Below are positions 12,662 through 45,200 of a stretch of DNA of 64,000 bases, in pieces (position 1 is the stretch's first letter; the number at the start of each line of letters is the position of its first letter). Both the position numbers and the translations under genes were made by a program. The DNA comes from Cystobasidium ongulense (Eukaryota > Basidiomycota > Cystobasidiomycetes > Cystobasidiales > Cystobasidiaceae): positions 496,001 through 560,000 of the forward strand of contig BQUP01000002.1 in the NCBI GenBank assembly GCA_022835595.1. Direction: 5' to 3'. The notes under the pieces were generated by a model. That model was not told the origin of the DNA, ran no database searches, and saw only the letters and a program-made list of their open reading frames with translations.

Positions 12662-15600
12662 TCATGGGCTCGCGTCCATGTGTGATCTCTGGATTCCGTC
12701 GCTTGCATCTATCAGTTTAGGCGTACTCGAGCGAGGTGCGCTGTCCTTCATATCATCATCGTCATCAATCTCGTTGCTATCCTTGAAGCCTCCTTCACGT
12801 CCATCTGTGGCTTCAGCATGCTCATCCTCATCTTCTAAGAATCCCGACATGTACGAATCGTCGACTATCGCTCCTCTTCTCGACAATGAATTTCTCCCTT
12901 CTTGATTGCGAACCAATCCTTTACCCTCTTCACCTTCTAGATCACTCTCATCTTCAGAAGAATCCTCCAGTGCAAATGCATCATATAATGCTCTCGATCT
13001 GGCTGGCCTAGCTCCCGTTCCACGCTCAAGGGCAGACATAGGGTGAGCATCGTCTTCATCTCTTCCGGACAGTAGACCATACCCGCCAAGTAGACCACCG
13101 AAAAGTCCTCCTCGACCGCCTCGTGGTCTGCCTCCCCCAGCCAGGCGAGCTTGTCTACGTCGATGGAGGAAGTACGCTCCTGCTCCTCCTAGGAATATGA
13201 TCACGCTTCCAAGAGCAAGGTAGAACCATGTCGAGTCTCCGACTAGCGATTTCCATGGGCCCAGGTAATAATCATCCTCAGCTTCCTCCTCGTCGTCAGA
13301 CTGCGCAGGCGCAGTAGGTATTGTTTCCTCGCTTGAAGACGTGGCAGTGGAGGCGCTAGTTTGCTGGGCTAGGTCTTCATCGAAAGGAAGGTCACTCTCG
13401 CCTGTAGCTTGTCCATGGTCGCCTGGTAAGTGCGCAGTAGGCTTCAAGAAGCTCTTGGTAGTAGGATGTAAAGGCTGCCCGTGGAACAGCGTAGTCGTTT
13501 CCGTCCAAGTCGATGATGCATCCGTGTGTGTAATAGTAGTAACACTTGCGTTGTTTTCAACTTTATGATGTGGAGGTGGTGGTAATATAATTTGATTATC
13601 GGTCTTCATCTTGTATGGTTTAGCAAGTGATGCAACTTTGGCTTGTCCCCATAACATCATAGACCAAGAGACAAAAGTCCCGTTCTTGCCATTTGTTTGT
13701 CTATCTCGCATAGTAAGTGTCCAATCGCCTATTGGATCCTCATCCCAGTGCTTGACACTCATGAAAGTCCAATCTGGGAATCCATCTTTATCATCATCGA
13801 ATCTTCTAGGTCGAGCCAGAATGCTTCGTATGCCATTCGGTGACTCGAGAATGACTTCCATGTTACCTCTTCGTTGATGCTCCGCACTCACAGTCACAGT
13901 AACGTGCTCCAGACTCTCAAAGTTCATGACATCGAGATCAGCACGCGATATTGTAACCTTCGAAGCAATGCCTTCTTTTGTCATTGACTTTTTCACTAAT
14001 TGAGTGGCCATTTCGAACCAAGCCTGAGGTTTCACAGGCTCGAAAGTTTTCGCGAGTTCGACAAGGCGGTATGCGTCCAGCTTGCCATACCCGTATTTGT
14101 GGTTATATGGCCGGCCAGCGTGTGTCACTTGCCAATCAGGATCTTTCAAGTTGACTGTTCAAGAAAGAATGTGAGTCGGAACAGAACTGACATAAAACAG
14201 GCAAACGAGGCCTGGCTCACCTTGGATGGCTGTCTGTACACACATGTGCTGCATATCCCGCCATGTCAGCTCTGGTCGAACTTCCAGAACGAGTGCGAAT
14301 ATGCCTGCTGCTATGGGTGCAGCGGCGGAGGTTCCTCCATGATGGTCGGTGCATTTGTTCTTGCCGACATCCGTTGTATGCTTCAGGAGAGGAACGTTCA
14401 GCAGTGCTCTTGACCTCATTATATGGATGGCTTACAATGTTGTCTCCTGACCCCGACGAGTACGTGACGACCATGTTCGCAGAGCATCCCTCGGAATAGT
14501 ATGGATGTAGACCTTTTCGATCAATTGCAGATATCGTTATGCTGAAAATACTATTGGTATAACCATCAAAGTTGCACTGGTCATCTACAGCTCCACCGTT
14601 GCCAGACGCAAAGACAAAGATTGATCCTTTGCCTCCTCGACCATTCTGGACCCCGTTCAACATTGATTTATAGATGAGAGGTGACGGAGCTTCCATGCTT
14701 CTTCCGTCATCGGGCGGTCCCCACGAGCAAGAGTATATGTCGTTATCTTGGTAACCGAAATTCAATGCTGATGCTTCATCCGCGTCTGAAATTGATGCGC
14801 TCAGAATGCGGATACCAGCGACTTTAGCATTGTATGCTACTCCTACGCCACAGACATCGTTCTTTGCGGCTGCAATCTCTCCAGCACATCTTGTACCATG
14901 CTGATCATCCGATAGGCGTGGTTTTGGCAAGTCTGTGTGATCATTGTAGTCCCAGCTCCCTTCAGCATACTGTATATCAACAAAATGCAGTCAGTATTGT
15001 ACGCGTAAATGAATGCGACTGTCCGAGAATATTCAGCGCTACGTACGAAATTATCCTTAAGATCACCGCTATACACTGTGGAACCAGATGGAATTCAGTA
15101 TCTTCCCGTTGAATGCAAGTTGTTCTAAGCTTACTGTCTAAGCCATCATCGACAATTGCCACTTTCACTCCAGCTCCGGTGATGCCCTGGTCCCAGACGC
15201 CAGTAACATTTATGCTGTTCTCCGGCATCTTGTCATTTGCAAGATGCCATTGTTTCGGCCATAGAGGGTCTGCTATCGAGAATCTTTCCGCTAAGTCCCT
15301 CAGCATTTGTGAAACTCCGCCTGTCGTGTCGCGTGGGTGTCTTATCCGAAAGGCTCTTTTCTCAAGAAGTTCTGTCGGTAGTTCTCTTTTGACACGCTTC
15401 TTTAAGACTTGCTTCTCTAATGAGACTATGTTATTGGGTGATATGCGCCTGGAATGAAGAATATGCCCCTCGGTGTTGTCTTGCTGGTCATGCGTTTGCT
15501 GCTGTGTCACTCCGTTAGACGTGTATTGCTGTATCCACTTCATGGGATTGGCATTATGCAGTGTATCTTGATTTACAGCCAGGCTATAGTACCTCTGCAT

Positions 15601-23461: not shown

Positions 23462-25033
23462 TCATGCTCGTGTCCGCACGGGTGTTCTCGTGCGTTTAAC
23501 CCTTTCTACCAATGATATTGGTGGTTCACTAAAATAGTCAAGAGCTATTGCTTTAGAAGATGGTGTTTCTGGTGGTGTAGGATACATCGCGGCGGCGGCG
23601 GAAGTCGAGATCTCACGCTTGACTGTCTTTGGTGACCTGGATTTCTTCGGCGTCGATGTATTGCTCGCGGATACTGACGGAGTGACTCGTTTCCGCTTTA
23701 CTGGCGTGGTGCTTCCGAATGTCGCCGTCTCTACTTCTTCAACCTTGACTTCGGTTTTGAGGAACATTGATTGTTCTTCAAGTTCTTTCTTTGCTAGAAG
23801 CTCGGCACCAGAGATTACTTCCATTGCAAGGAGTGGATCCTCAAAGTCAGAGAACGACTTCAAGTCGGCAGTGAATAGGATCTTGTAATAGCAATGTATC
23901 TAATCAGATTTTGGACAAACGGCGAGGCTGCGCATCCACGACACTCACCTGGTGCGCCCATCCTGCCTTCATTCCCCAAGCTTCCTGCAATTTCTCTCTT
24001 ATTTTCCCGTACATAGCCTTGCTAACAGTAGCATCTTTTGAACCTTTCAGACCATAGTCTCTAACTGCGATTTGATATACATGCGTATCAACAGGGACGA
24101 CATCTTCGAATCCTAGTCCGAATAGTAGGATGCAGTCTGCAACTTTGGGTCCAACTCCCGAAAAGGTCAATAGCACTTCTCTTGCTTCTGATTCTGACAA
24201 GCTTGAGACTGTCTCTAACCACTGTTCTGGGTCTTTATAGCCTGCCTCTTCTGCCATCGCACAAACCAAGGCTGCTGTTCTTGTAACGTATGCGTCTCTA
24301 TAGCCGAACCCAGCCGTCCGAAGCGAAGCAGTTACTTTGTCTCCAAGAAGCGATTCCGGTCTAGGGAAGGCGTATATATAGTCTTCTTCTGTTATGGTAG
24401 CTTGAGGATCCAGCTCAGCGGGACACGGTAATCGCTCGCCGTATAATTTCAATAAGCGTCTAAGCATGCCTTCAATTCTGCCGATGTTGTTATTGCTTGA
24501 GCAGATAAACTCAATCAAACACTCCCATGCGGGCTGTCTCAAGATTCGTATACCGCCAAATCTTGTGCCACCACTAGTCTTCTTGTCGAAGTTGGGATCT
24601 CGAGACGACCAGAATGAATATAGGCTGGGCAGGGAAACGTCTAGTACGAAATACTTGCGTAGAAAGTGGAGTGTTGTGTCATCCTGGAGGTCTTCAGCGT
24701 GCGCTCGTGCATGTTTGAGTGGAAATAGCGAGCGATAGTGAATTCCCTGGGCTGAGGGGCGGGCAACGAAAGCCGTCAGTTTCAACGTATCTGCTAGAGG
24801 GCGTGCTTGTCGGGCTCACAATCCTGCCGCAGCACTATCGTCCTGTCCTTGTGACCATAAGACCATTCATACAGTTCATTCTTGCTTTCTAGCTTCACTT
24901 CAGGCAGAGTCGCTCTCGCGTTGCCTTTACGCCAGAGGAAAGTCTGGCCGCACTTCAAGACGGCGGCGAGCGAGAGTTGCGCTGGCTCGAGTGGTAGAAA
25001 TCGCAAAGGCGACAGCAGCATAGCTGAGTGCAT
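23462..25033 (-). CDS. OGG1: 8-oxoguanine DNA glycosylase/lyase OGG1
   Basis: OGG1 removes oxidised guanine opposite cytosine. The product starts MHSAMLLSPLRFLPLEP and shows the OGG N-domain LKCGQTFLWRK, then SQGIHYRSLFP after an intron. The glycosylase core has FICSSNNNIGRI, the helix-hairpin-helix FSGVGPKVADCILL (the Lys is the Schiff-base nucleophile) and VPVDTHVYQIA (catalytic Asp), ending GWAHQ/ILFTADL. A C-terminal extension of about 110 residues follows. It carries Lys/Arg patches (PVKRKR, KKSRSPKTVKRE) that look like nuclear localisation signals. It lies about 275 bases from the mycosporine ATP-grasp gene and reads in the same direction. Confidence 0.92.
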
Positions 25034-25307: not shown

Positions 25308-26930
25308 CTAGCACGAGAACAAGCGGCTAGTGCTGACGTTCACTCTGCTCCATCCTCTACCTTGCACATATACCAGTCTGCCCAAGAGCCACATCCACGT
25401 AAGATGTTGGAAAGCGAATGGGAAAGGGTCCGCTGGATCTAGCATGGGATCTTTTTCGGATCCGTTTATATAGCTGTCGATGATCTCTCCAAGAGATGAA
25501 CGGACAGGCGGTGATATTGTGACGGCTGGCACCGAGGTCGTCAGAGGATCTATGTCCATGGATGAAGTAAGGAGTGGATGTAGATTCAGACACCAGCTTT
25601 GAGGTAACAAGTAATTTGCCAGAGCTATAGGTAAAGCGTGGAAAATCCAAGAATAACGATCTTGTGAAATTTCATCCGCTACTATTAGACCATTTTCCTT
25701 CTTTCCGAAATATGAGGCTGCTGACTTTGTTGGATCATATGTCGAAAGTAGAACTATAGCAGTGTGAACTCTGGGATTGCATTCAATGGGATAGAGAATA
25801 CCATTTTTATCCACGATAAAGTCAAAGCTGAAATGTCCAGAAAGACAAACTTCATCTCCTTCTTCTCTAGTTTCTTGCTTGAGTGCCTTCTTCCACCTCA
25901 ATAGAAACTCTCGAGTCCATTCTTCAGCATCTTCAGCTATACTTTGAGAGAATGACGTCTTGCAGTCCATGTATCGCATAAGCATATCTGACGAAGGGCA
26001 GCATACGAAAGATTGCATTACCCCTTCGACAGCGTGGCAGTGAGTGCAGAATTCGAAGCCGGATATAAATTGTTGGAGAACATATGGTGACTCTTTCGAG
26101 ATGGCGCGGGGCATCTTGCTGAGATGGGCTCGTGTCTTGGTCTCCGTCTCGAAGGGAAGTTGGGTGAGATCAGATCGGCCTGTCAGGAAGAGACTTCCAG
26201 AGATCAGCTCGAAAGCTCCTTCCTAGCAAAACAGTAACTGGAACTGACCTTGGTCGTCAAGAGCTGTACACTTGACAATATACATCCTTCCCTGTCTTTC
26301 ATCACTATGCAAGAACTCCACCGCTTCTTCGATGTCCGTGACCAATTTACTTTCTGGAGTTTGGAAACCCAATTCTTGACACAATTGCCCAAACATATCT
26401 TTATCATGTAATCGTAAAGCTTCTTGTGGAGACTGGATGAAGAATTTGCAATCTTTGCCCATGGTTTTCTTTAGAGTTCTAGCAGTAAAAGCGTCATTCA
26501 TAGTGTTACCAGCAGAACTAGCAGGTATCCAAAGTCCAACATTTTCTTTCTTGATTATACTCCAGATTGCCAATTCATATGCTTCATGACCTTGTTTAGC
26601 AGGATCGGGCAGATTGTAGTAATTTGAGATGCATCTAGAAAAACGTGATGATGATAACCATCCCCATTCTTGTTCATCTGCTATAATCACTCTATAACCC
26701 GCCTTCCAGAATATCCTTGCTAGAATCAGTGATTTTGTTGTTCTTGCTCCTGTAATAAGTACTGTAGTGCTCTTGTTCTTGCTATCCGCAGGCTGTACTT
26801 TGCGGGCGTGTGCGAACCAGATGACGATGCTGAGCGTGAATGACAAGGGCGCGGTAACGAGCGAGAGCAGCAGGAGCAGAGAGGTAGTAAGCAAGGACTG
26901 AGAATACGAGGGCTTCACAGGAGCAGACAT
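25308..26930 (-). CDS. ATP-grasp ligase of mycosporine biosynthesis
   Basis: In known mycosporine pathways an ATP-grasp enzyme couples 4-deoxygadusol to an amino acid. This protein begins with a membrane-anchor-like hydrophobic stretch (residues ~14-42, LLLLLSLVTAPLSFTLSIVI). A pre-ATP-grasp fold follows (TTVLITGARTTKSLILARIF, YRVIIADEQEWG). The ATP-grasp part includes KLVTDIEEAVEFL, YIVKCTALDDQ, the hinge SPYVLQQFISGFEF, and the metal-binding end DFIVDKNGILYPIECNPRVH with its Glu and Asn. One intron joins DDQG/RSDLTQLPF. A Cys- and His-containing loop (CTHCHAVEG) is notable. The call depends on both fold and neighbours: the cyclase and methyltransferase of the same pathway are next in line. 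ATG at 26930 chosen because it precedes the anchor. Confidence 0.85.
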
Positions 26931-27400
26931 GGCTTCTCCATGCACAATGCCTGTTGTGGCAGCTCTTGCTCTTGATGCTTGCTTTGCTTTCAAGTTGTCA
27001 CGAAGAAGAAGACGATCACCGTCGGTGCCTCTCGATTCTTGTCTTCGTTCAACACATCGTACATTCAAAAACAAGCAACAGAAAGACGACCTATTCTCCC
27101 GTCAAACTGATCCTCTATACATTCGTGTGGCAGCGTTGCGAAAGTGTTCTGCAGCAGCGAAAAGATCCTGTCCGAAGAGCAGCAGGCACATTGAAAAGCA
27201 ACGTGTTACACCTTGCTCGACAGCAGAGTCGTGAGCATGCCAACTAAATGCATAAGAATATTGTCTACAAAGGTTTTATGTTATTTGTATGTCCCTGTTA
27301 AAGCATGTATAAGAGAACAATCATTGACACCCTGATTTTCAGTTTCGCATCATGATAAAAATCAATGATGTTAACCATCTTTCCCACTTGTCCCTTTTTT
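26931..27400. other. Gap between ATP-grasp and cyclase genes
   Basis: About 470 bases: 5' flank of the ATP-grasp gene and 3' UTR of the cyclase. A polypyrimidine run lies near 27391. Open frames on the plus strand are short and not protein-like. Confidence 0.35.
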
Positions 27401-29198
27401 TTAACATCCACATTCTACTGCCTCTACAGCCTTGCCGTTTACAGGCTTAGCAATCTTGCCATTGGACGAGAGTCCGGCGCCTGCACCCTCGACAGCGACC
27501 GACTTGTCATCGGTCTTGCCAACATGGGCAGTGCCATTGCTCTGGCTCTTTTGCTTGAGCATCTCTTCTGGCGATTGACCTAGATCACCAGCATCAACGT
27601 AGGCTTCAATACCTGCACCCTGTCTGGGGAACTTTTTAACGATCTCCTTGTGTGTCTTCAAGGCGGCGTATAGCTCGTCCATAGAGGCATCGTTGATGAA
27701 GTGAGGTGTGCCAATAGGCTTAGGGACGACAAAGCGTTGCTTGCCGTCTCGGGTCTGAAGGATAGCCTCGGTACCAGCGTCGAGGAGAGCATTGTCGAAG
27801 AGTTCGTGGTCAAGCGAGAGACCAACGCGAGACATGAGTCCGAGAATTTCGTCTGACGATCAGATGGTGGGTAAGCTTGGCTCGTCCACACGGGTTGAAT
27901 GTGAAGTGTACTCACCTCGCTCTTCCTCGGTAATGTAGCCACGAGTCCAGGCTAGGGTGGTCGAGTAGGCCATGTCAATGTTGATGGCATGTCCGTGGCG
28001 TAGCGGAATCTCAGGCTTGAGTTCAAGAGTAGGAGACCAGGTGTGGCCGAAGGCGATGACTCGGTCAAGGCCGATTTCGTGAAGGTTTGGTGTCTCGAGC
28101 TGCAAGTCGGATATATGTCAACTATTGGTCCTCAACGGAACACAAGGCAGCACAAATAAAAGGAAACATACCTCCAACATGACCTTGATACCTCTATGGC
28201 AGACCTCCTTGGCAGCGTCAACGATTTCCTGCTTTGTTCCATCTGCTCTACCGAAGCGAGTCTCGATGAAAGCTTCACCGTTCTTCTCCAACAACTTCCA
28301 AATTGTTATATCAGAAACAGAAGAAATCTTAACTAGCTCGGCAAAGCCATTTCTGACTTGACCTTCTGGTAGTGTGCGCAAGAAAGTGAAATCTAAGAAG
28401 GTCATGGCAGGTGCGTGGTATGCACCAAGACGGTTCTTTAGCTTGCCGTGATTGACGGCGACCTTGATAGAGACGGCAGCATCGATTAGGCCGATGACTG
28501 TTGTTGGGATACGGATAAAGTTGGAGTTTCGTCTGTATGATGCGCATGCGAAACCAACGACATCGGTGACCTGTAGGAGGGAAGGGCACGGAGTGTCAGT
28601 CAGTGTCTCGGAGGTGCTGTACGCCTGTACCCTCTGCTTCGGGCCGAAGAAAGCCTTGTCGGCACCAAATGCCGCAGCAGGCAGGGAAAGGATCACGTGA
28701 CTCACTAGACCTCCTCCGCAAGTCAGGACAGGCTCCTTTCGGATGAGTCCAAAGTCGGAGAATGCGTCTACGATTGAGAGCATGTTGTCCATGGTCTGCG
28801 AGGAAAGCGTCAGCTGTGAGATAATTGTGGAGAAGAAGATCACGCTGCGCACCTTGTGAATTTCGCCCCCTGGCATAACGTGGAGGGTCAAGGGAATGTC
28901 GTGGTGCTTGAAGTAGCCCTTCATCTGGTCGGCATAGGCATCGTGCACAATCTGGTCAGTGATGAGGAGACATCTGTTCCACTTCTTGTAGATGTCGGCG
29001 AGGTGGGTGTGCTTGACGTCAAAGATGTTGTCGACAAACTTGAAGCCTGCACGAAGGAGGGGAGAAGTGTCAGACGGTGGAGTAGAATGGAGGTATAAAG
29101 AGGGAAAGTCGACACTCACCATACTTCAACTCCTCGAAGCCGTCGACGGAGAAGCCATCCTCGAGGACGCCAACCTTTGCTTTCATGTCGGAAGCCAT
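27401..29198 (-). CDS. 2-demethyl-4-deoxygadusol synthase (sugar-phosphate cyclase)
   Basis: A member of the dehydroquinate-synthase-like cyclases, which form the six-ring core of mycosporines from sedoheptulose 7-phosphate (shikimate-linked origin is a competing route). Landmarks are [16 protein letters not shown]; the NAD-binding VLTCGGGLV and [25 protein letters not shown] with [17 protein letters not shown], the form typical of DDGS/EEVS rather than plain dehydroquinate synthase (SVGGKTGVN); FAELVKISS; and metal-ligand His in the [11 protein letters not shown] and IAFGHTWSP blocks. The tail is Gly/Lys-rich and ends in Cys-Gly-Cys. Five or so introns. The start is the ATG at 29198. DDGS is preferred to EEVS because the methyltransferase and ATP-grasp partners are adjacent. 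Confidence 0.88.
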
Positions 29199-30470
29199 GT
29201 TGAATGAATGTATGAAGGAGGGGTAGTAACTTGTTGAAGTTGATCTAGACGAGTGCTGATGTTTGTTGGATTGAGAAGAGAGAAGAAAAGAACTGAAGAA
29301 TGGAATTACTTCTCCTCGAGATCAAGGCAGCTCCTCTCCTACTAGTCACGTTCTTCGCCTCCTGGGCGATTGCAGATCAACGATCTCGAGAGCTGTGGTC
29401 ATTATGAGCAAGTGAGCGACCGTCCATACGCGCGGCAATCGGGTATTATTGTCTTGTCCTGTCTTTGTGCGCACCAAATTCATTATTATCATACAAGTTG
29501 GCTGCTCCATCCAATCTACGCGTCTCTTCCATCCAGCATCGCAGATCGCGAGCGACAGTTTGCCCGTCAGACGGATCGACGTTGGCCTCCAACCATTTCT
29601 ACCATTTTAAAGCGCAATCATTTACTCCACTTACTGCCGTTGTCAGCTCTGATCAGGAGCAATCAGTAGGAGATCCGGATCGTCCGTCTTTCGCCCGGTG
29701 CAGCTGTAGACGCGCTGAACGGGCCAGCATGATGACTGGTTACAACACACCAGGATACAGCCTGCTTTTCTCTTCTTTAACACTTGCAGAACCGGCACAA
29801 AAGTCCATCGACTGCAGACGTCTAACCTTTCCCTGCTGCGAGAATAGGAGATACGGTGACTATTCCTACGGAAAACCCTTCTGTTTCTCCCCATTTTGGT
29901 CATAAAGACTTGCGATGAAATAACCAAGATGTATTGCGATCAACATTCGCCTGCTTGCTGATGCTACCGCTACGAGGTCTTCTGTCACTCGATCTGTACA
30001 TCGTATAATTGCATTCGAGATCGAGCAATTCCAACATGGAAAATGCCCGTAACTTGATAGATTTATACTGAATCTACCCTTGACAGGGCGCAGACTTTGT
30101 GTACTTCGATGGCCGATAATTTAGCTGGTTTGATGGTGTAATGATCTGGGCTTGATTTCCATCCGGCTTCAGGGCAAAGAAGCTTCGGGTGCATCAAGTT
30201 CCCGACTTTGCCACGTAGTAATATGTATGATGCACAACATGGAGGGCGTGTCAGTAGCGATTCTAAGCGGGCGATTCGTCAAGTAACAAGCTCTATCATA
30301 GTCCATAGTTTATTGAGCTCTCCTGAAAGTGCCGTAAAACCTCCCAACCGCTTCTTTGCTTGCCTTTGTGCTTCTGGCGTGGCTGTAAAGCCGATCGACG
30401 CGCGCGCTCTCCAGTCCATCATTCAAGTGTATCTGCCTTGCGACAATACAAACGCAGTCAATACTCAAGC
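29199..30470. promoter_or_regulatory. Bidirectional promoter between the cyclase and O-methyltransferase genes
   Basis: About 1.27 kb separates the divergent starts of the two early mycosporine genes, the longest gene-free stretch in the cluster. The open frames inside are Ser/Cys-rich, overlap on both strands and lack family features, so I treat them as non-coding. The length suggests a shared regulatory region. I could not identify a specific light- or stress-response site. Confidence 0.45.
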
Positions 30471-31520
30471 ATGTCTGGATCATCGTCCTTGTCCGCCCTG
30501 GAGGCCTTGTGCGCTACCTGCTGCTTACTACATCTGATTGTCAGCTACTGAGATGGACCTTGCATTTGTTTTTCAGGTCCGCACATGACATCAACGAACG
30601 GCAACGAATGCTCCTCTCAAAGCTACAAGCAGAGAGCGATAAACTGTCACCATCAGCTCAAGCAGCTCTAAAAGAAGCTGTACAAGTAGCAGAAGGATTA
30701 GATTCGTATTTGGACAAGATTTCAACTTCACCACCTGAAATATTAAATGAAATGATCAAGAAGACTTATGAGACTGATTGGAAAAAGTTATATCAAGATG
30801 GGACTACCTCTATTCCTCTTATCAAGGAGATGTGTGCTGGTGGTTATGAAGCTGTTTTACTGAGGGAGTTTGCCACGATGGTAAAGGTGGGGTTCCTCAA
30901 ACTTCAAGTGCGGGGTGTACATGAACTCTAGCTGATTCGGTTTTAATCAGGCCAAACGAATTCTAGAGATAGGAGTCTTTACATCAACAACAACAGTAGC
31001 ACTCGCTTTATTACCATTCGTCGAGAAGATAGTAGCATGCGATATAGAACCCTACCTCGTAGAATTCGCAAAACCTTTTTACGAACAAGCAAAAGTTACA
31101 GATAAGATTGATTTTAGAATTGGAGATGCTATCAAAACATTGGAAGATATAGAATCAAAAGGTCAAGGGTTTGATTTGGTTTTTATCGATGCTGATAAAG
31201 GTGGTTATTGGAGATATTACGATAAGATCATGAGTAGCAAGGTTCTTTTGAATCCTGATGGAGTCATTATTGCCGTGAGTTTTTCCGCTGCCCTTCATTG
31301 TTATCTGTTCACTAACAAGCTTTTTACCTTCTGGTTGCTTCGGATCACACAGGATAACACTATCTACAAAGCTTCGACTTTTGTGCATCACGAAGCTTTC
31401 GCTGAAGGCGCAAAGGCACTCGGAGAGTTCAACAGGAAAGTAAAAGAGGATCCTAGGTCTGAGGTCGTTGTATTGCCTGCGCGTGACGGTATTAGTATCA
31501 TTAGAAGAGCCCAGCAATAA
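30471..31520 (+). CDS. O-methyltransferase of 4-deoxygadusol synthesis
   Basis: Four exons fit in phase: 30471-30508, 30577-30886, 30951-31274 and 31353-31520, giving about 280 residues, the usual size for this family. The class I SAM fold is plain: ILEIGVFTSTTTVALAL (motif I), VACDIEPYLVEFAK (acidic strand end), GFDLVFIDADKGGY (metal/catechol-type motif) and VIIADNTIYKAS. It groups by pattern with the mycosporine O-methyltransferases that convert 2-demethyl-4-deoxygadusol to 4-deoxygadusol. The ATG at 30471 gives the short first exon MSGSSSLSALEAL. It is divergent from the cyclase and in tandem with the A-T-R gene 330 bases downstream. Confidence 0.88.
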
Positions 31521-31850
31521 GCTGCAACCATGCAGATCGTCAGCGGTCCTCTCCGTAGTCTATCAGCTCCAATGCCAATACTATAGAAGAATAGAGCTTT
31601 TTCTTAATTGTATTATTAGAAAGTTAATCAATCAAGGGATGCGCTGCTCACTTTTCTCTGACTTCTTTGCTATCTTCAATTGCAGGCGGTCTCGGATCGC
31701 GATCGCCACACATGTGAACAGGCAGGTAGGTACCTCGGCCAGACTGTTGGAGATGAGGCTTCTTTACTTACACCACGACCATTATCACATTCGCTTACTG
31801 GCACTACCGACGACTGCACTATCGCTAACTGACAACGTGAACGCGTCAAG
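31521..31850. other. Gap between O-methyltransferase and A-T-R genes
   Basis: About 330 bases between two genes read in the same direction. No credible gene. It should hold the first gene's 3' UTR and the promoter of the second. Confidence 0.35.
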
Positions 31851-34800
31851 ATGGCCGACCTTTCATATCTCGTCATGACAGCCGCCGATGCAGCCTTGCA
31901 CAATACTTCGCATCCTCACGACATAGTCTCCTTGAACCAATTGCTGGAAGAGCGAAGCACGACTTGTCCCGATATCATCTGCGTGGGATTCACAGACAAG
32001 CAAGATGGCCTGCTCATTTGCAAGACCCTCAGTAGGTCTTCACAGGCAACGTGATCGGGCTTCTAGAACCAGAGATACTCAAGTTGACCACCATTCTCTG
32101 CTCTTTGCTTTATCACAAAACAGCATTCAAGCAATTGTACGATAAAGTATGCAAAACAGCCTACCTGTTGTGCAATGAGCCCGAATATGCCTTTCAAGCT
32201 CGAACTAAAAAACAAGAGACGCAAGATGAAAAGCATCATTTCACAGTTGGCTTGCTTGCACCAAGCTGTGAAGAGTTTTTAATCACACTATTCGCTCTGT
32301 TCAGGCTGGGATGGAGTGTTCTTCTTATTGCGTAAGTGCTCGTCTGTTCAACGGCATAGGCACGTCCTCCGAAGGATCGCAGCTGAAAATGGTTTCATAT
32401 CTCTTCAGACCGCAGAATACACCTGAGGATATCGCAGGGTTATGCAAGGCTACCAATGTATCACGTGTCTTATTTCACCCTAGCATGGGCAATGCAGCCA
32501 GTAAAGCGGAAGCGGTATCCCAAGGATCACTTGCCGTTACGCCTACGCTGGTATACTCTATTGAGAAGCACGATGTGCCTGGAAGTTACGAACAGACTCG
32601 TTCAGAGCTATGTCCGGAGGAGGAAAGCGAGACAGATTGCATTATCTTTCATTCTTCGGGGTCGTCAGGCACTCCAAAGGTTAGTGCCTTCCTCACAGAG
32701 TCATAATAAATTCTGACCGCGCATTTTGCTCATCTTTCATCTGCCATCCCTAGCCAATCCCTCAAAAGCATCGCATATGGACGAAAGCGGCATGCTGTAA
32801 ACCATGCTCTCCCTCTTTCACCACGACACCTCTTTTTCACGGTGGCATAAGTGATCTCCTCCGCGCAATGATGTCAAAATCGACATTGTACATGTTTCCT
32901 TCGACCATGCCTATAACAGCTTCAAACCTTCTGGAAGCATTCGAAGCCTGTCCTGAAAAACCGACAAGCTTTTTATCCGTTCCCTACATACTAGAGATGC
33001 TCGCTGATACTAAAGAAGGCATGCACAAGCTGGCGGAGTTTCAGCTGGTCAGTACCGGCGGGTCACCGCTGGCGCCTCACGTGGGAGACATGTTCGTAGA
33101 GAAGGGTGTGAAGCTTGTCAGTCGATACGGATCGAGCGAGTCAGGATGTAAGTCACTCTATGCGTCTTTCTCACTATCGCGACTCGTGTTGATCTCGATA
33201 TGCCCAATGCAACAGTCCTTATGACCTCTTTCCGCGATTTCGCGAATGATAGAGAATGGAACTATCTTCGACCTTCAGCTGGCAAAGAGTGGCTCGTATT
33301 TGAGGACCAAGGAGATGGGACAAATGAGCTGGTTGTACCAAAAGCATGGCCGACACGGGTACGTTTGCCTCGGCGTCCGCTGCGCATTGCACGTTTTCTT
33401 TAGCTCATGATTCGCCTCTTTTTCATATGCAGAACAAATCCAACAGGTCGGACGGGTCGTACGCAACTAGTGATCTGTTCCGTAGGCACTCTGCGATAGA
33501 TGATGCATGGATGCTTTGTGGGCGAAGTGACGATGTTATACTAATGGTAAGATAGCCTGCCGTAGTGCACATTGGATTGAAAGACTAATCACTACTTCCC
33601 TATAGAGCAATGGTGAAAAAGCAAGTCCAGCTCCCCTGGAAAGCGCCGTACGAAAGTCTCCTCTCGTCAAAGAAGCTCTCGTCTTCGGCGTCAACCGTTC
33701 CAGTCTGGGATTAGCCGTCATACCGACTAAGGAAGGAGTGAACTCTTCGGATCTTACTTCAGCTTTAAAAGAAGCCAACAAGATCGCTCCTGCGCATGCA
33801 CAGATTGCGCCTGAGCTAGTAGTCATTCTCACTATCGATGATACTTTTCCGAAAGCAAGTAAAGGAACAATGCAACGCGGCAAGGCTTATCAAGCGTATG
33901 CTAGCGCCATTGATCAGGCTTATAAGCGATACGAAGCATCTGATATGCATGATGGAACTTCGCTCAAATTGCAATTGGCACCTAGCGAGCTATTAGACTA
34001 TATACTGGACAAGCTAAGGGAAACGATGCAACAGCAGAATGTCGATGCCGACGATGACTTGTTCAACCTTGGTCTAACATCTACGCAAGCGCTTCGTGTG
34101 CGAAATGTGCTCAGAACGGTAAGTAGCGCAAGGCTGAGGTCTACTACCGGGAATCGGACTGACCCCAATCGACTTGCAGAAATTGGACCTCGGTACATCT
34201 GTAAATCTGCCTCCGAATATCGTTTACGAATGTTCTACAGCACGAAGGTCAGCTGGCATACTATCTTCCTGAAGACAGATCTATCTGATCTTCCCTCCTA
34301 TAGGTTGGCAGGCTACATATCCGATCGAACAGAAGGCCACCACGTTGAAAGTGAAGATCCCGACTTCAGGTTAATGGAGGAGCTACTGAATAGCGAGCTG
34401 ACTAAGTTCGAAGCTTTACCAAACAAACAAACAAATGGGCTCAATGAGAATTCGACACCGCGCACCTGTGTAGGTTGCGAGTTTCTCGCCAGCAACGCTT
34501 ATAGAGCTGACGAAAAACCTCTTGTAGATACTGACTGGAGGTACCGGATCTCTCGGTGCTCAACTCATCTCACAACTGATGAACCGAACAGATCAATGGA
34601 ACATCACGTGCCTAGTCAGAGCTGCTGATGACGAATCCGCTTGCGAGAGAGTGCTCAACAACCTTCGAACTCACCACGTCAACCTTGGCGAAGATCCTCT
34701 TTCTCGTCTGACATGCCTGGCTGCTAAACTCCCCGAGCCTTCATTAGGCCTACAAGCTAAGGCATACGACGACCTCGCTCATAAGGTGGATCTCGTGATT

Positions 34801-35769
34801 CATGCCGCCTGGCCGGTGCACTTCAGTGCCGGACTGCAGTCGTTCGTTCCTCATCTGCAAGGCCTCGGCAATCTAATCAGCCTGGCGAGAAGTAACGATG
34901 CAGATGTCTACTTCTGCTCCTCAACAGCGGCTGTACTGGGCGGAACGTCAAAGACTATAGAGGAAAGGATATATACCGATCCATCAGATGCAGTCGCTAT
35001 TGGTTACGCTAGATCGAAGTTCGTCGCCGAAAACATATGCGCTGCGGCAGCGAAAGCTGCTGGGAAGAGCAAGATTAGCGTTTTGCGGCTTGGACAGCTG
35101 AGCGGGGATACCGTACATGGTATTTGGAAGACGGAGGAAGGATGGCCGCAGTTGTTCGGCTCTGCTGGCCTTGTGGGATGTTTGCCGGAACTCAACGAAG
35201 TGGGTATCTTTCGCCTAGATAAGGAAACTTTCGGATGAAGTGCTGACCTCCTGGGGGAATAGACTCTGAATTGGCTACCCATGGACAAAGCTGCCAAGGC
35301 TATCGTGGACATCCTTACCAAAAAAGCTGGACAGAAGAGTCACAACTCGGCAGAAGTGTTTCATGTGACTTCCACTAGTCTTACGACTTCGTACAAGGAC
35401 GTCCTTGCTGTCTCAAAGACTGCAGGATTGCATTTCGATCTGGTCCCGCCTGCTCTGTGGCTTAAAAAGTTGGATGTTGCTCGAAATGACGGCAAGGAGC
35501 ATTCGTGTCTGAAGATGCTTCCTACGTGGGAGAGGAACGTACGTCTCGACTTTCAACACGTCTTTTGCGCCTTTTCAGCTGAAGCAGATTTTCAAATTCC
35601 TTAGTACGGAGGATCTCTCGATGCAGAACCACAGGCACCCGTCTTCGAAACCAAGAATGCTGAAAATTACACGCAAGCTCTGAATGAAGCAACAACAGGC
35701 TATTTGTTTGTCCGGATATTGCAATATTGGCAATCGCAGGGCTTGATCCAGCTTAGCCAGCCGAATTGA
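31851..35769 (+). CDS. Adenylation-thiolation-reductase (carboxylic acid reductase-like) enzyme
   Basis: An NRPS-like protein of about 1,050 residues with no condensation domain. The adenylation domain shows A3 IIFHSSGSSGTPK (32,640-32,680), A4 TTPLFHGGISDLL, A5 RYGSSESG, A7 YATSDLFRR, A8 CGRSDDVILM and A10 GTMQRGKA. The carrier domain has DLFNLGLTSTQALRVRN, with the phosphopantetheine Ser. The thioester reductase has LTGGTGSLGAQLI for NADPH and IGYARSKFVAENI with the Tyr-Lys pair. Such enzymes load an acid as a thioester and release it as aldehyde or alcohol. A4 has FHGG rather than the FD of alpha-amino-acid-activating domains. About nine introns. The position beside the mycosporine genes suggests it reduces the amino-acid carboxylate of a mycosporine; this is inference. 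Lys2 is unlikely because the body is short and the specificity region differs. Confidence 0.82.
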
Positions 35770-35876
35770 ACAGTACATGTTTAGTTGGAATTCACAGGCC
35801 GAAAGAGGGAAGCAGATCCCTTACACTGCCGGCTTCGTTGTATGGGCAATCCAGCATTCCATGCCAACCATAGGTA

Positions 35877-36185
35877 TTACCCGCCGGCGGGTTGCCGATG
35901 CACTTCCTCATCCGACAAACGGAAATCGAACACCTCGAAATGGGGAGGGGACTTACTGGTTTCCATATCTAATAGCAGCATCGAGGTGCCGTCATCCAGC
36001 TCGTATAGCTTCAGTACAGATGCTTTCGCATGTGTCAGGGGGCAATCTAGCTGATTGGCCGCTTCAGTGTCGGCTGCTATTGATTTGGAAGGCTTTGTCC
36101 GCTTGCCGGTGCCAAAGATGAGGATGGGCATATAGACTCCAAGCGCTATTTCGCGCCCATGTTCTCGCAAGTCATCTGCTCTCAA
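35877..36185 (-). pseudogene. Aldo-keto reductase remnant
   Basis: A 102-codon open frame whose two ends look like the two ends of an aldo-keto reductase. The N-terminal part, REIALGVYMPILIFGTG, matches KDLAPGVQMPIIGFG of the intact gene at 36549-37931. The C-terminal part, HFEVFDFRLSDEEV, matches NFEIFDFELADEDM. The ~200 residues carrying the barrel and catalytic tetrad are missing, replaced by about 50 unrelated residues. It lies just downstream of the intact copy on the same strand. It is best read as a decayed tandem duplicate. A short expressed protein cannot be ruled out, but it would lack reductase activity. Confidence 0.55.
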
Positions 36186-36548
36186 TATGAAAGAAGCGCG
36201 TTGATCAGCAAGCGGAAGGGCGTCACGTCAATGTTCGATCCTTGTTGAAGAGATGGCTCACGCGCTATCAGTGACACTGTGGTAGATAAATAAGGAGGGA
36301 TGGGATGTAAGTCCAGCGCGCTGTGGTCTGGTGTTCAAGTCAGCTATAACGAAAGTCATGTTCAAGTAAACCAGTAGACGATCGAAAGTGTATGCAAGGG
36401 AAGGACGCAAGTCCTGATCTGCTTGTGATTGCAAGATTCACTACCATGCCTAACGAATTGCCCTCTTCTGTATAAAGTTCTATCATTTTACTACCTGCAC
36501 TCGCACGAGCCTTGTGACAAGGACCCCTGCCACATGAAACGGCGGGAC

Positions 36549-37931
36549 TATTTTTCTAACTTCATCACTCGCAGTTCAAGTTCCAAGGTGCAACAGGTCC
36601 CGTTGGCGGGTCACCAGTGTCTTTTGCGTCTAGCTCAGCCATGTCCTCATCCGCAAGCTCAAAGTCGAAGATTTCGAAGTTACTCTTGATGCGAGAGGGT
36701 GTATCGGACTTGATCAGAGGAATGAACCTAGAGACGAGGAGAGACTATTAGCGTATGTTCGACAAGAGATACTGAAGCGGCGCTTACCCGTGCTGAAGAG
36801 ACCATCTAAGCAGGATCTGACCTGGATCTTTACTGTATTTCTGAGCCAGCTTTTGAACAGTTGGATCATCGTTCTTCTGTGCTCGAATAATAGGACAGAA
36901 TGCTGTAAGAACCAGACCAGCTTCCTTGGATGCTTTAATATGGCTGGCTGGCTGACACCAAGGATGAAGCTATGATTGTTCAGGAGAAAGAGCAGGAATT
37001 CAATCAGATCCTCCAACTTTTTGCCACCGCCCGGTGGATAAAAGATACAATGCAGACTCACCTCGATCTGGTTGCAGACGGGTTTGACTTTGCAGTATTC
37101 GAAGAGTTCTTTCAGATGGTCCTTTCCACTGCGAAGAGACCACGACATCGCTGTCATTAGGATACTATACTGGGTACAATGCCATTTGAAGAGAAGGTTG
37201 CTCACTAGTTGCTGACACCGATAGATTTGGTCTTCTTGTTCTCGAGCACTAGCAACGAGATGTCAGACAAGGCGCTACTTTCGACACTTCAACGATATAC
37301 AATCGAAACACACATTTCTCTAGCGCTTGCCACAAGACCTTTCGGCCTTTGGCACCAGCAGCGTTTTTCGGGGTGTGGACCAGGAAGAGGTCGACGTAGT
37401 CTGCGAGAAGGTGCAGTATATCAGCCTATTGAATCATGCATGCAGTACAGAAATGCAAGAACCAACCCAAGCCGAATGCTTCTACACCCTTGACGAGTGC
37501 GTCATAAGTCTCTTGAGGGTCCAGGCTCTCGGCAGGTCCTAGAATCTTTGTAGTGACAAAGAACTCGCTTCTGTCAATACCAGACTTGTTGATAGCATCT
37601 CCGACTTCTTTTCTGGAAATCAAGTAGGATATCCAACGCATCAGATACGTGTCGATCGGGCAATGCAGTGGTAGGCAACCTGAGGTATCTCTCACTCGTT
37701 GCCGTAGTAGATGGCAGAATCGAAATGGCGATAGCCGACCTTGATGGCTTCAGCGCACGACTTCTCGCACACTCCCTTGGGCGACTCCCCTGCAACGACG
37801 ACAGCAGCTCAGTCTGCCGCTGGATATACTGGCCTGTCGGGCATCACGCATCGCTCACAGACGCCAAAGCCGATGATGGGCATCTGCACGCCGGGTGCGA
37901 GGTCCTTCTTGTCTGTAGCTTTGAGAGCCAT
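36549..37931 (-). CDS. Aldo-keto reductase
   Basis: In-phase joining gives MPIIGFGVW/ESPKGVCEKS, YYGNE/KEVGDAINKSG, GVEAFG/DYVDLFLVHTP and VLENKKTKSIGVSN. The product is an (alpha/beta)8-barrel NADPH oxidoreductase with catalytic Asp and Tyr in HFDSAIYYGNE, Lys in FVTTKILGP and His in LFLVHTP, and an intact C-terminal segment NFEIFDFELADEDM. It resembles fungal aldehyde and xylose/glycerol-type reductases. It is read toward the A-T-R gene, so it may turn the aldehyde released there into an alcohol; this is inference from position only. Introns are many and short. Confidence 0.8.
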
Positions 37932-38136
37932 GCTTGCTACGTTTCAGTGATAATATAGAAAGCTTGTTGCTGATAAGACGTAAAGTGAATGCTGTAACGC
38001 GGGCACATCAACGATTCTCGCCGATCACGTATAGCCGACTAATACTTCGGAAGGTGAGAAAGGCAGGACTGCATTGCATTGAAGAAACATAGATCCAAGC
38101 TGCCATCTCCACCCAGACACGCCCATCGTCGTAGCT

Positions 38137-39230
38137 TTACCTCGCCATCCATCCACCATCGCAAACCAGCGTCTCGCCCGAGATGTAGTCACTGGCCGCA
38201 CTGGACAAGAAGACTGTCAATCCTTCAAAGTCTTCTGGCGAGCCCCATCTGTTTGCTGGGATTCTTTCCAAGATCTGACGTGACCGTGTTGGGTTGGCAA
38301 TGAGAGCTGCCGTATTGTCGGTAGCGATGTAGCCTAGATTGAGATGGGGATGTGCATTAGTGGAGACGGAAACAACTGAAATCTAAAGGAACGTAGAAGA
38401 AAGCTTACCAGGAGCGACAGCATTAACATTGATTCCTTTTGACACCCATTCATTCGATAAAGCTTTGGTAATCCCCATAACACCGTGTTTAGCGGCTGTA
38501 TAAGCAGGAACGGTAATACCACCTTGATAAGATAGGAGCGAAGCGACATTGATAATCTTGCCTCTTCCTCTTGGGTTTGAGTTTGATGATCCTTCAGGTT
38601 TAGCTTCTTCTCCTGATACTCCTCCTCTGGATTCTAACATATGTCGTCCTACATCTCGACTTAGCGTAAAGACGGCAGTCAAATTGACTTGAAGAACTTC
38701 ATCCCAATCTTCATCGAGGTACTTCTCAGCTGGGTTTCTGTGTTTCACAGTCAGACATTGACCACAATCAGCTTATTTCCTCTCGAAGCAAGGAGTAAAT
38801 GTACGAAATCTTACCTTCGAATAATACCACCGCAGTTGATGAGTATATCAATGGTCTCCCCCAATCCACCTTCAGATTCAGGTCCGACTATCTTCTTGGT
38901 CAAGGATTTGACAGCGCTCTTATCCGCCAGGTCGCATACAACAATCTCGGCTCTTCTTCCAAGTGCTCTAATAGCGTCACGTGTCTCCGTCATGGTTTCG
39001 TTGCGCTGGGCGAAAGAATAACGAGATGGGAGAGCGGGGAGCCGTCAGCCTTTTAGGACAGCCAGCTTCCCTGGATTGGAGTTACGACACTCACCTGAAC
39101 TAGAAGAACATCAGCACCTGCTTTTGCAACTGCTTCTGCCATTTTGGCACCAATGCCGCGAGAGGCGCCGGTACACAGAGCAGTTTTGCCCTGTAAGCCG
39201 AACAGGCTTTCGAGGTAGGCTGAGGACATG
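38137..39230 (-). CDS. Short-chain dehydrogenase (KduD/gluconate dehydrogenase-like)
   Basis: A classical SDR of about 290 residues. It starts [15 protein letters not shown] and has the cofactor motif [16 protein letters not shown] in place of the usual [13 protein letters not shown] with the catalytic Ser, and [11 protein letters not shown] with Tyr and Lys. It ends [14 protein letters not shown]. The overall pattern matches 2-deoxy-D-gluconate 3-dehydrogenase and gluconate 5-dehydrogenase types. Introns split the Rossmann half at VLLVQ and INCGGIIRR. It sits at the right edge of the mycosporine block, reading with the AKR and the next SDR; involvement in that pathway is possible but unproven. 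Confidence 0.78.
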
Positions 39231-39742
39231 TTGCGATGTGGGCTGAACACGGAAGTCGGTTGGACAGTAGGTACCGGAAACAGTGCAAGTACTAACTGAT
39301 TGAAACAGGGTAAAGGAATGATTCCTTCCACTCAGAACATACCAAATTCATATTGCTTGGACAGCCGCCGTGCAGAGAGTGATCGAAAGGCCGGAGCGGC
39401 AAGCAACGAGAAGGGCGGCTATGGAAAAAAGGTTATTCAAGTAGTGAACAAGGTGGTGAGCTGAAGAAACAGCATGCTAGTTTCTATGATGCCAATTTCG
39501 TATGTTCCCAACCAAGCTACAGAATGAAATGAAAAGTGGATGCGTTAAAGTAATGTCTATTTACACGGAGGATGCATTCTTCATCATTCAGTTCTGTCTA
39601 CAATTTGCTAGAATTTCTAGGGCGTCTAGCACCCTCTGCACCAACGCTGGTGACAAGAGCAAACAGCAGAAAGTCAGCATCCGCTCACGATACTAACGAT
39701 AAATGACATGCTCCGTTCGTGAGGAAAAAAAACGAAAGCTGC
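39231..39742. other. Gap between the two SDR genes
   Basis: About 510 bases between two same-direction genes. No credible gene; contains the promoter of the left SDR and the 3' flank of the right one. Confidence 0.35.
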
Positions 39743-40849
39743 TCACAGATAACCGGCAGTTTCCATACGATAAACGCCTTTATCATCCGGTATAAGCCAA
39801 GAAGTGAAATTTGTCTTTTCGTCGGTGTCGGTTATCGATCCTACGAATGCAGCTATGACATCTTCTAGTTTCGCATATCCCATCTTGGGATTTGGATGTA
39901 CGAAATCTGCTGTTAGGAGGGGTGTTTCTGGATGGAGAAAATGGGTAAAATAGAAGGTATAAGCCTCGACGATCCGGATACGTGGAAGGACCCATCGATC
40001 AGCAAGAACGGCTCGACTTACTGACAAAGTATGGTGCTACTGTTACCATTCTTATATCTATTGAGCGGGCTGTCTCTATGCATCCTTTCATTATACCCAG
40101 AATGCCACTATAGATCATCACGTGCGAAAAGAGCGGACTCGGTCAGTCAATTGGCGAGACATGGAGGGTGAGAAGGTGTGACTCACGCCTTAGCAGCACC
40201 ATACATGACTCCCATGGTGGCACCATAGAAGCTCGACATTGAGCCTGTAAAAGCCACTGCTCGCAAGCCAGGATCTTCTCTCTTATCGTTATAAAAGTAC
40301 CACAGTGCGATTCTCGTAGTGTAAAGGACGCCAGTTAGGTCAATATCCAGAGTCTTTAGATTAGGAGGCATAGGTTTATCTTGAGCAACACCAAATTCCT
40401 CTTCCATTCTCTGATCAAATCTTCCTATTTCACTAACTCCTGCATTTGGAAGTACTATATCTATATTCTTGAATGTCTTCATTCCTAGACTGAAGAGAGC
40501 GAGTTGTGAATCCCAAGATGTGACATCGCATACTGCTGTACATGCTTGGCTGTTGTCCATATCATGTCACATGAATGAGGTCCCACGATCATCGGTTTCG
40601 TTTCAATCAGCTTCTGGACTTGTAAACGTGATTTCAAACGTGAACCCACCTCCCAGCCTGCTCGACTTCCTTCTTTACGACCTGTAGACCCTTTTCATCC
40701 ACATCTCCCAGCACCAGCTTGGCACCATGCTTTGCAAAAGTGACAGCGCAGGCACGTCCAAAGCCTGAGCTTGCTCCAGTGATGAGGACGACTCTGCCTC
40801 GGAGGCGGTCGGCGTGCTTGAAGCAGTCTGCAGTGCTGATGGCGGGCAT
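39743..40849 (-). CDS. Short-chain dehydrogenase, 15-PGDH-like
   Basis: A classical SDR with VVLITGASSGFGRACAV, an acidic end of strand two (LVLGDVDEKG) that favours NAD over NADP, VLPNAGVSEIG, VAFTGSMSSFYG with the catalytic Ser, and MYGAAKA with Tyr and Lys. The insert EEFGVAQDKPMPP and long C-terminal half resemble fungal 15-hydroxyprostaglandin-dehydrogenase-like enzymes of unknown substrate. At least three introns. The ATG at 40849 is the first in frame before the Rossmann fold. Likely cytosolic. It may be the last gene of the mycosporine block or simply a neighbour. Confidence 0.75.
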
Positions 40850-42275: not shown

Positions 42276-45200
42276 TCATTGTGGGCCAATATTGAAAGTA
42301 GGAATAGGTGCATCGGCAGCTTCAGCTTTCAAAGCAGCGAATAGAGATTTCTCAGAGCATAGCAGGTTTTTCTTGTCTGGGTTTGAATCTCGAGGGAAAG
42401 GTGAGAATTGTCCAAAGATATCATCGTCAATGTCATCATTGATTGAAAGATGAATCTTCTGCATCTACAAGAAGAGGGGAAAAAATCGCTTCAGCTGTTT
42501 TTCGATGTGTAGTGGCTTCTTCCAGAACGATCAGGTCGAAAGGAAAGGAGAGAATGACTCACATTTTTCCCGACATCAAAGGTATTATGATTATTCCAAA
42601 TGGAATATAGATTCTCTCCTTCCAAGCTTGAATCTATAGGAGTGGTTTTATGATTATTCAAACCATACATTCTAATTTTCGAAGGTGAAGAAACTGATCT
42701 TCTTCTAGTTTCAAGCATAGGTTGTAATCCTTCACCTTCGATCCTCTTATGACCAATAATATTTTCTTCATGATGATTGCTAACGAATTGATGTTTCTTG
42801 TATTCAGAATTAAGAGGAGTAGGAGAGTACGGAAATTTGTAATTATTATAAAAACTAGTACTACTACTATCATAAGGAGAAAGGGAAACACTATGTTCAC
42901 GATGATGATCTCTATCATTGAACTGATAATAATTATGATTGTTCGACATGGATCTCAATTCAATTAAACCATGAGCGAATTGACATTTTTCACCATATCT
43001 ACAATTTCCAATCTCGGACCAAGATTTACATAATTCCGTTTTATATAATTCTCCTTTTTTGTTATTTGGTGAAGGTCCTTGTGGTTGATGTACGAAAAAT
43101 CTTTGTTGATGGCAGTAGTGATTGTCGTAGTATTGTTGTTGTGAAGTGTTATAATCATTATGCGAGTGAGCATGTCTTGGTGGTGCGGAATAGGAACTGC
43201 CATGTTGATTGTAATGAGTGAACGGATACGGCGATGGAGGACCATATTTGGAGTACTCGAACGATGTCGCATGACCTTGAGCATGTTCCTCACTACTGTT
43301 CATTGGTAGTTGGGAAGAAATCGCCCTCCTCAACTTGTATCCAGCATGTGACGAGGAAGAAGCAGGAACAATACCAGATACAGAAGCTTGAAGTTGATGA
43401 TGATAAGAAGAAATAGCATATTCCTCAGTAGGGAGATGCATAGTGGAGTGATTGCCATATTCAACCTTGATAGGATCGTCAATTTCATCATCAAAATTGA
43501 AACTCAAAGCTGTGTGGTTTGATATCTTGTCTTTTTTGATAGGTGAAATAGGAGGAGAAGAAATAGACCAAATACTTTTATGTTGTGCGGTCTTATTCTT
43601 AGTACTTTCACTGCTTTTTTCGAGTGTTTCGAGTAGGATGTTGGATTTCTCCTGCTGTGCTGCTTCAATTGAGAGTGGTGATAATGGGGCGAAGGTTTTC
43701 CCTCTATGCGGGCCGAAGGAAGGTGTAGAACGAGTAAGCTGAAAGATCTCTTCTGCTTTTTGCTCTCCACAACCACATCTGCATATCGGGAATTCGTCCC
43801 CAAAAGTCGTTCTGTTTCTCTCTGAGTATATCGTGTTTTCATTTCCATTTTCAGGTATGAAGACTCCTTTAGCGTTGTTTGTCAGAGTATCCATTGATTT
43901 TGAGTTTACCAGGGAAGGAAAAGAAGACGAAGAAGATAAGAAAGGATAAGAAGCTTTCTTGGACAATTCCAATTTACTTTCGAATAATTCCAAAGCATTT
44001 GTGAAACTAGTAAAAGGAGTTTGAGGTAGTGGTGATATTCCACTAAAACCTTGTAATCGTTGACGAGAGTACGGAGTGATAGATTGTACTGTTTGCTTTC
44101 GAGAAGAATCACGCAAAGGAGGTGTCGGGAAGATGGAGAAAGAAGTGGTAGTAGCAGTAGTAACTGGTTCATCTATTAAACCTCTGATATTCTTCTCTAA
44201 CATTGAAAGTGGGAAATCATCTTCATTTGCATCATCATCATCTTTTTGTTCCTCAAGCATATCAATTCCATCCAACAAACTACTAATTGAAGAAGATACT
44301 TGTCTTGCTAATCTATCACTAACATGAAAACAAGGAAAACTTTCAGAAAGTAATAAATCTTTTTCACATGTTCCTTCTTCTTCTTGTTCTTGAACAAAAG
44401 GAGGAGATGAAGTGAAATGATGAGAGTGATGATGAAAGCAAACTGAAGAGCTAGAAGAAGCAGGTGAAATAGTAGGAGGACTACTCCTCGTTCTTGTTCT
44501 CGACGCGTCTTGTGCATCACCATATTCATCATTATCGTGAATGAAATGACGAGAGAAAGAATCGGTAGTAGGAGTAAACATGGAATCGTTCCGATTATTG
44601 TTATTGTAATCTTGATTGAAAAGAAGAGTACTGTCTTCAATTGCTGATGTATCATTTGTAGACATTGATGATGACGTGAAAGACGAAGTTGTAATGGAAG
44701 TAAAAGTTGAAGAATTTGAACAAGTTCGATTTCGACTGGAATAGAAAGAGTCTATGGAGAGAAGGAGGCGAGAAGAGAGAAGAGAAAGAAGGAAGAGAGA
44801 AGCGAAAAGAGAGAAGGAAGAAGACAGGAACCCGAAAGACACAAAGGTCAGAATCGTTCTCGCCATCAATGTGGTTTATCAAGGGAGAGAAGGACAAGGA
44901 GGAGGGAACTCACCTTCCCAACCAATATCACAACCAGAATCATCACACCCTCCATCTCTATCAGTCTCAGCTCCAATGATTTTTCCAACCTCCTTCTGGA
45001 CCTCTTTGACTTCTTTTGATGGCCCTACTGGTACTATTGGAGTAGTAGAGGAGGAAAGTTTCTTGCTGGTGTCTGGTACGCTAGAGACGATTGAACGATT
45101 TGATAATGAAATTGTCTTATTTGACGCAGTAGTGGTAGTAGTTGTTGTAGATAAAAGAGGATCTTCATAATTTAATAAATCCCTCTTCTTGACTGTTTCT

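Follow-up and report, generated by a model that had tools for sequence, protein, structure and literature searches.

Does the mycosporine gene cluster of a basidiomycete fungus carry, beside its core genes, the enzymes that turn a carboxylate into the alcohol of mycosporine-glutaminol? The question is raised by a block at 25308-40849 of a 64,000-nt stretch of Cystobasidium ongulense DNA (assembly GCA_022835595.1, contig BQUP01000002.1, positions 496,001 to 560,000, forward strand; hereafter the window). Here, genes for an ATP-grasp ligase, a 2-desmethyl-4-deoxygadusol synthase (DDGS) and an O-methyltransferase (OMT) lie next to those for a carboxylic acid reductase (CAR)-like enzyme with adenylation, carrier and reductase domains (A-T-R), an aldo-keto reductase (AKR) and two short-chain dehydrogenases (SDR1 and SDR2). 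An earlier, sequence-only reading had taken the first three genes for a mycosporine core and the other four for the source of the reducing step. By homology the identity of the core is secure, and we consider it probable that it is an ordinary mycosporine core whose chemistry does not need the neighbouring oxidoreductases; we regard the locus as a real cluster with an ordinary core and an interesting but hypothetical extension.

Fungi make several amino-alcohol mycosporines (glutaminol, glutamicol and serinol forms), and the literature examined, represented here and below by the accessible parts of the papers cited, assigns no gene to the reduction. In the accessible text of the study of Phaffia rhodozyma (PMC10057719), the ATP-grasp enzyme is said to take glutaminol, while the origin of that glutaminol is left unnamed and unexplained. 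A reductase beside the core would give a direct handle on this gap, and possibly a part for making UV filters in yeast.

The seven-gene block

The window is intron-rich eukaryotic DNA with a GC content of 47.7%, in which no tRNA was found. Genes were modelled with a small splice-aware caller (GT-AG introns, codon usage), and the models for DDGS and the A-T-R were corrected by eye; exon boundaries are predictions made without a transcript basis. Seven intact genes fill the block, and the remains of an eighth lie among them:

25308-26930, minus strand: ATP-grasp ligase, 517 aa, 2 exons (NF005315/PRK06849 profile; bacterial DDGS neighbours)
27401-29198, minus strand: DDGS, 465 aa, 6 exons (PF01761, PF24621; 5tpr_A)
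30471-31520, plus strand: OMT, 286 aa, 4 exons (PF01596, 2.4e-38)
31851-35769, plus strand: A-T-R, carboxylic-acid-reductase-like, 1056 aa, 12 exons (AMP-binding, AMP-binding_C_3, PP-binding, NAD_binding_4)
about 35900-36100, minus strand: AKR relic, a decayed copy with a stop codon in frame (tblastn match to the intact AKR)
36565-37931, minus strand: AKR, 284 aa, 8 exons (PF00248, 1.4e-33)
38137-39229, minus strand: SDR1, KduD-like short-chain dehydrogenase, 283 aa, 4 exons (TIGR01832 kduD)
39598-40849, minus strand: SDR2, classical short-chain dehydrogenase, 292 aa, 5 exons (PF00106, 1.5e-31)

From left to right the intergenic gaps are 470, 1272, 330, 795, 205 and 368 bp. The 1272 bp gap separates the divergent DDGS and OMT genes, and the A-T-R gene follows OMT after 330 bp, in the same orientation. 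Gene models and profiles agree on the seven side-by-side genes that had been proposed, with the same outer ends, and the claim that no unrelated gene intervenes also held, in that no other Pfam-recognisable gene lies within the block: a Pfam scan of nine further ORFs inside it and at its edges, smaller ORFs being outside the scan, gave no match. The relic had no place in that account.

The block's gene content and order, its protein families and their motifs are plain to see. In the six proteins other than ATP-grasp, 19 of 20 motif patterns tested are present. The unmatched pattern is H.....GHTW in DDGS, of which the GHTW part is present.

The mycosporine core

A DDGS-type cyclase with an adjacent OMT and an adjacent ATP-grasp gene, the make-up of the core of a fungal mycosporine (MYC) cluster, is found in the window. 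Among Protein Data Bank (PDB) chains, the cyclase scores 479 bits with 5tpr_A and 240 with 4p53_A, and at most 113 with the 14 other chains listed, which are mostly dehydroquinate synthases. We take 5tpr to be the DDGS of Anabaena and 4p53 to be the cyclase ValA (the chains are annotated as 3-dehydroquinate synthase and cyclase, respectively). A stretch that separates the Phaffia DDGS from dehydroquinate synthase has been published (PMC10057719), and 25 of its 30 residues are the same in the window protein.

The ATP-grasp protein, with an N-terminus that is hydrophobic by eye, matches no Pfam family and no PDB chain. Its name comes from a match to NF005315/PRK06849 (5.3e-60; 203 bits, where the curated cut-off is 406), and from the position of its homologues beside bacterial DDGS genes. 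A search of genome contigs gave 57 DDGS loci, all actinobacterial and some cut by contig ends; an ATP-grasp homologue lies within 5 kb of DDGS in all 57 and an OMT homologue in 54. Gene order on one strand is DDGS-OMT-ATP-grasp in 54 of these loci and DDGS-ATP-grasp in the remaining three. This clustering of the trio in bacteria lends independent support to the core of the window. A search of viral contigs for DDGS gave no match.

The profiles, the 5tpr match and the bacterial clustering thus all favour the earlier assignment of these three genes to 4-deoxygadusol formation and ligation. By homology, the core would make 4-deoxygadusol from sedoheptulose 7-phosphate and would attach an amino acid or amino alcohol to this, as do the homologous genes of Phaffia. 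There, DDGS, OMT and ATP-grasp lie in an 8-kb cluster (PMC5103461) and have been tied to mycosporine-glutaminol by deletion mutants, expression in Saccharomyces cerevisiae and transfer to a non-producer (PMC10057719).

The A-T-R enzyme and its adenylation domain

Pfam matches place AMP-binding, AMP-binding_C_3, carrier (PP-binding) and NAD_binding_4 domains in this order along the A-T-R protein, and the motifs for ATP binding, for the carrier serine and for NAD(P) binding are all present, as is a Y-x3-K pair. The thioester reductase domain scores 180 bits with TIGR01746 (cut-off 213), and its nearest solved relatives are 8aep, 4u7w (MxaA) and 8v1x. With the domains of a carboxylate reductase in their proper order and their conserved motifs in place, we infer by homology that the enzyme would reduce a carboxylic acid to an aldehyde. 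A search for the A-T-R returned 13 pattern matches and no relative.

Which acid it would accept was approached through the adenylation domain, which was aligned with 10 nonribosomal peptide synthetase (NRPS) domains scoring over the TIGR01733 cut-off, two domains scoring below it and taken as acyl-CoA-synthetase-like, and two bacterial CARs; the 10 NRPS domains are among the best-scoring of two bacterial genomes, in a set without a fungal amino-acid reductase. An aspartate, presumably the residue that holds the alpha-amino group, occupies the FD(V/A)S-type position in each of the 10 NRPS domains, and the window A-T-R has FHGG. A histidine lies one column off in both CARs and in one of the two sub-cut-off domains, the other having neither residue, and when HMMER aligns the A-T-R with a solved CAR, the two histidines fall in one column. 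Against the amino acid adenylation profile TIGR01733, the window protein scores 46.8 bits (cut-off 317.4).

Since the aspartate is replaced by FHGG, free glutamine is an unlikely substrate, and it is more likely, to judge from this motif, that the A-T-R would activate an acid lacking a free alpha-amino group and release it by NAD(P)H-dependent reduction. Candidate substrates are mycosporine-glutamine or mycosporine-glutamate, the amine of which is already bonded, or an unrelated acid. As we read the motif, it would lower the case for free glutamine and leave that for N-linked mycosporine-glutamine untouched.

AKR, SDR1, SDR2 and a decayed AKR copy

By sequence the AKR belongs with the generic carbonyl reductases, nearest to prostaglandin F synthases (201 bits with 1vbj_A) and to DkgA-type (2,5-diketogluconate) reductases (3.6e-59 and 200 bits with the DkgA profile, under its cut-off of 425). 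SDR1 scores 309.5 bits with the kduD profile TIGR01832 and 230.8 bits with the solved 4z9y_A. The profile cut-off is 338.85, so the protein is named only KduD-like and is not equated with KduD, the 2-dehydro-3-deoxy-D-gluconate 5-dehydrogenase; its family suggests a dehydrogenase of the sugar-acid type. SDR2 is without a close solved relative, its best PDB match scoring 91 bits.

Between the A-T-R gene and the intact AKR gene lies the relic, which in tblastn is 55% identical to the intact AKR over 29 aa (E 2.4e-6) with a stop inside, and has a second, weak match (E 0.009) and no Pfam match. This decayed copy indicates that genes have been both gained and lost here.

Possible role of the adjoining oxidoreductase genes

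Chemically, an A-T-R together with an AKR or an SDR would be enough to take an acid to an alcohol, and two forms of such a pathway can be drawn. In one, reduction follows ligation: the ATP-grasp enzyme would first join glutamine (or glutamate) to 4-deoxygadusol, the A-T-R would adenylate the free carboxylate of mycosporine-glutamine, load it onto its carrier and release the aldehyde, and the AKR would reduce this to mycosporine-glutaminol. The position of the A-T-R gene 330 bp from OMT on the same strand and the presence of the tested motifs in both A-T-R and AKR agree with such a route, as does an adenylation domain that, without the NRPS aspartate, is in keeping with a substrate whose nitrogen is substituted. 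Both compounds, mycosporine-glutamine and mycosporine-glutaminol, are also listed from fungi (PMC10384724, table), the latter in PMC4665425 as well. Against it stands the report that the three genes of Phaffia, in a cluster described as consisting of just these, suffice for mycosporine-glutaminol in S. cerevisiae (PMC10057719), which weakens the need for an extra reductase. We regard reduction after ligation as rather unlikely, and give a similar, slightly lower chance to the reading of the locus as the carboxylate-to-alcohol branch of fungal mycosporine biosynthesis, in which an A-T-R blind to free amino acids takes mycosporine-glutamine or -glutamate and the AKR finishes. The other form, which the sequence-only reading had in mind literally, has the A-T-R start from free glutamine and reduce it towards glutaminol, to be joined to 4-deoxygadusol by the ATP-grasp enzyme. 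The unnamed source of the glutaminol in Phaffia would leave room for it, but the replacement of FD(V/A)S by FHGG and the low TIGR01733 score speak against it, as does the description of the fungal amino-acid CARs as members of clades I and II, with clade V being mainly basidiomycete (PMC9605436); it is very improbable. Against a part of the extra genes in making glutaminol stand the reported sufficiency of three genes in Phaffia, the FHGG motif that disfavours free glutamine and the KduD-like nature of SDR1. What stands of the original proposal is a mycosporine core with an adjoining A-T-R and three further oxidoreductases; that these supply the carboxylate-to-alcohol step is a hypothesis.

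The preferred reading, an ordinary core with dispensable neighbours, has a stronger form with which it overlaps: two units, one being the core and the other a module for acid/aldehyde or sugar-acid chemistry unrelated to it (A-T-R, AKR, SDR1 and SDR2), brought together by chance or by shared regulation. To this we give a nearly even chance. It accords with the KduD-like SDR1, with an AKR whose closest relatives are generic carbonyl and 2,5-diketogluconate reductases, with the turnover that the decayed AKR copy implies, and with the failure of any shared promoter word to pass the window control described below; the A-T-R gene directly adjoins OMT, however, in a compact block that has unrelated genes on either side.

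Several points weigh against the preferred reading. Fungal secondary-metabolite genes often cluster by function. An A-T-R gene beside OMT, on the same strand and in a metabolic block bounded by genes of a housekeeping type, is unlikely by chance, an argument that we treat as suggestive; for the AKR and the SDRs, which belong to large families, adjacency is weak evidence of a shared pathway. The chance of an A-T-R in one of the two flanking slots comes to about 0.1% in a rough, post hoc estimate with numbers from two Naganishia species (three NRPS-like clusters in N. kalamii, PMC10422843, and 6,251 genes in N. friedmannii, PMC12204325). The product in the Phaffia work was identified by retention time and absorption spectra only, and the phrase 'mass spectrometry' is absent from the accessible main text (PMC10057719). 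Finally, eight 8-mers are shared by at least three of the six upstream regions of the block (for SDR2, the first 1000 bp only); in 50 plain shuffles the average was 3.4 and the highest count 7.

These promoter words were nevertheless rejected as evidence of co-regulation, as none survives a control with random stretches of the window. The count of eight 8-mers was reached in 47 of 400 dinucleotide shuffles, and that of two shared 9-mers in 19 of 400. One 10-mer, AGCAAAGAAG, is shared by the regions upstream of DDGS/OMT, A-T-R and SDR2; this was reached in 8 of the 400 shuffles. Random stretches of the window, drawn in 300 sets, gave at least one such 10-mer in 75 of the sets, a number raised by possible overlap between stretches.

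Flanking genes, base composition and repeats

In the flanks, 134 ORF fragments were kept by a length and codon-usage filter, and 31 of these were scanned with Pfam. To the left are an MCM7 gene, a kexin-like protease, a DUSP-domain ORF (under cut-off) and an OGG1-like DNA glycosylase, and to the right a CCCH zinc-finger gene, a cupin/JmjC ORF and an HhH-GPD glycosylase, so that, by these family matches, genes of a housekeeping type bound the block on both sides. Among the 31 fragments scanned, there was no match to glycosyltransferase, transporter or DNA-binding regulator families, and hence no glucoside-making enzyme was seen among them; in Phaffia, the authors place glucosylation with a gene outside the cluster (PMC10057719). 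The OGG1-like 8-oxoguanine DNA glycosylase ORF (23907-24815, minus strand) directly adjoins the ATP-grasp gene, and the second HhH-GPD glycosylase ORF is at 59850-60689. A gene for the repair of DNA damage beside a sunscreen cluster is perhaps a coincidence.

In 2-kb bins, the GC content of the block (0.443-0.500) lies inside the range of the whole window (0.383-0.517), and so gives no sign of a recent foreign origin. The lowest bin (0.383) holds the long ORF with a CCCH zinc finger (42494-44875, minus strand), and the bins at 42-46 kb differ from the rest of the window in their GC skew (0.16-0.25). No repeats of at least 25 bp (14-base seed) were found at 22-44 kb.

Comparison with known systems

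The bacterial clusters resemble the window in having the core genes side by side (all three in 54 of 57 loci) and differ in what surrounds them: in the flanks covered, there is no match to AKR or SDR1 (0/57 each), one to SDR2 (28% identity) and three to the A-T-R. This rarity means that they give little support for the added genes. All three A-T-R matches (L007, L016 and L020) are in Rhodococcoides, from two species, and those in L007 (3615-7118) and L020 (3575-7090) are CARs of the bacterial type by length and motifs, lying upstream of the core and ending about 3 kb before DDGS. In L020, by eye, an OYE-like flavin enzyme adjoins the CAR, and this and other genes lie between CAR and DDGS. Given three matches in 57 loci and these intervening genes, a link between CAR and DDGS in bacteria was rejected as coincidence. 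Also by eye, L020 has a D-Ala-D-Ala-ligase-like ORF (13351-14472) and a TauD-like one (about 14.4-15.3 kb) downstream of its mycosporine core.

Among fungi, the A-T-R shares its layout of AMP-binding, carrier and NAD_binding_4 domains with the carboxylate reductases of PMC9605436, where 84 fungal CARs fall into seven clades, clade I being proposed for amino-acid reduction and clade II comprising the L-aminoadipate reductases. Compared with that set by description only, the adenylation motif of the window enzyme argues against the amino-acid type. In the ascomycete Hypoxylaceae, homologues of a mycosporine-like amino acid cluster were reported among the NRPS-like clusters of most genomes (PMC8403587). 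Among the papers listed in a literature search, limited to titles and the openings of abstracts and with subscription journals mostly uncovered, none connects a mycosporine cluster of basidiomycetes with an A-T-R gene.

The closest known system is the MYC cluster of Phaffia rhodozyma (DDGS-OMT-ATP-grasp, 7873 bp; PMC10057719, PMC5103461), which has the same three core enzymes at similar sizes (477, 284 and 500 aa for DDGS, OMT and ATP-grasp, against 465, 286 and 517 aa in the window). In both, DDGS and OMT diverge across a long intergenic region, of 1568 bp in Phaffia and 1272 bp in the window. Exon numbers differ (14, 7 and 6 in Phaffia, and 6, 4 and 2 in the window), as does the placement of the ATP-grasp gene, which lies on the DDGS side in the window, with the A-T-R following OMT where Phaffia has ATP-grasp. 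The Phaffia cluster is described as three genes only, whereas the core in C. ongulense is adjoined by four oxidoreductase genes.

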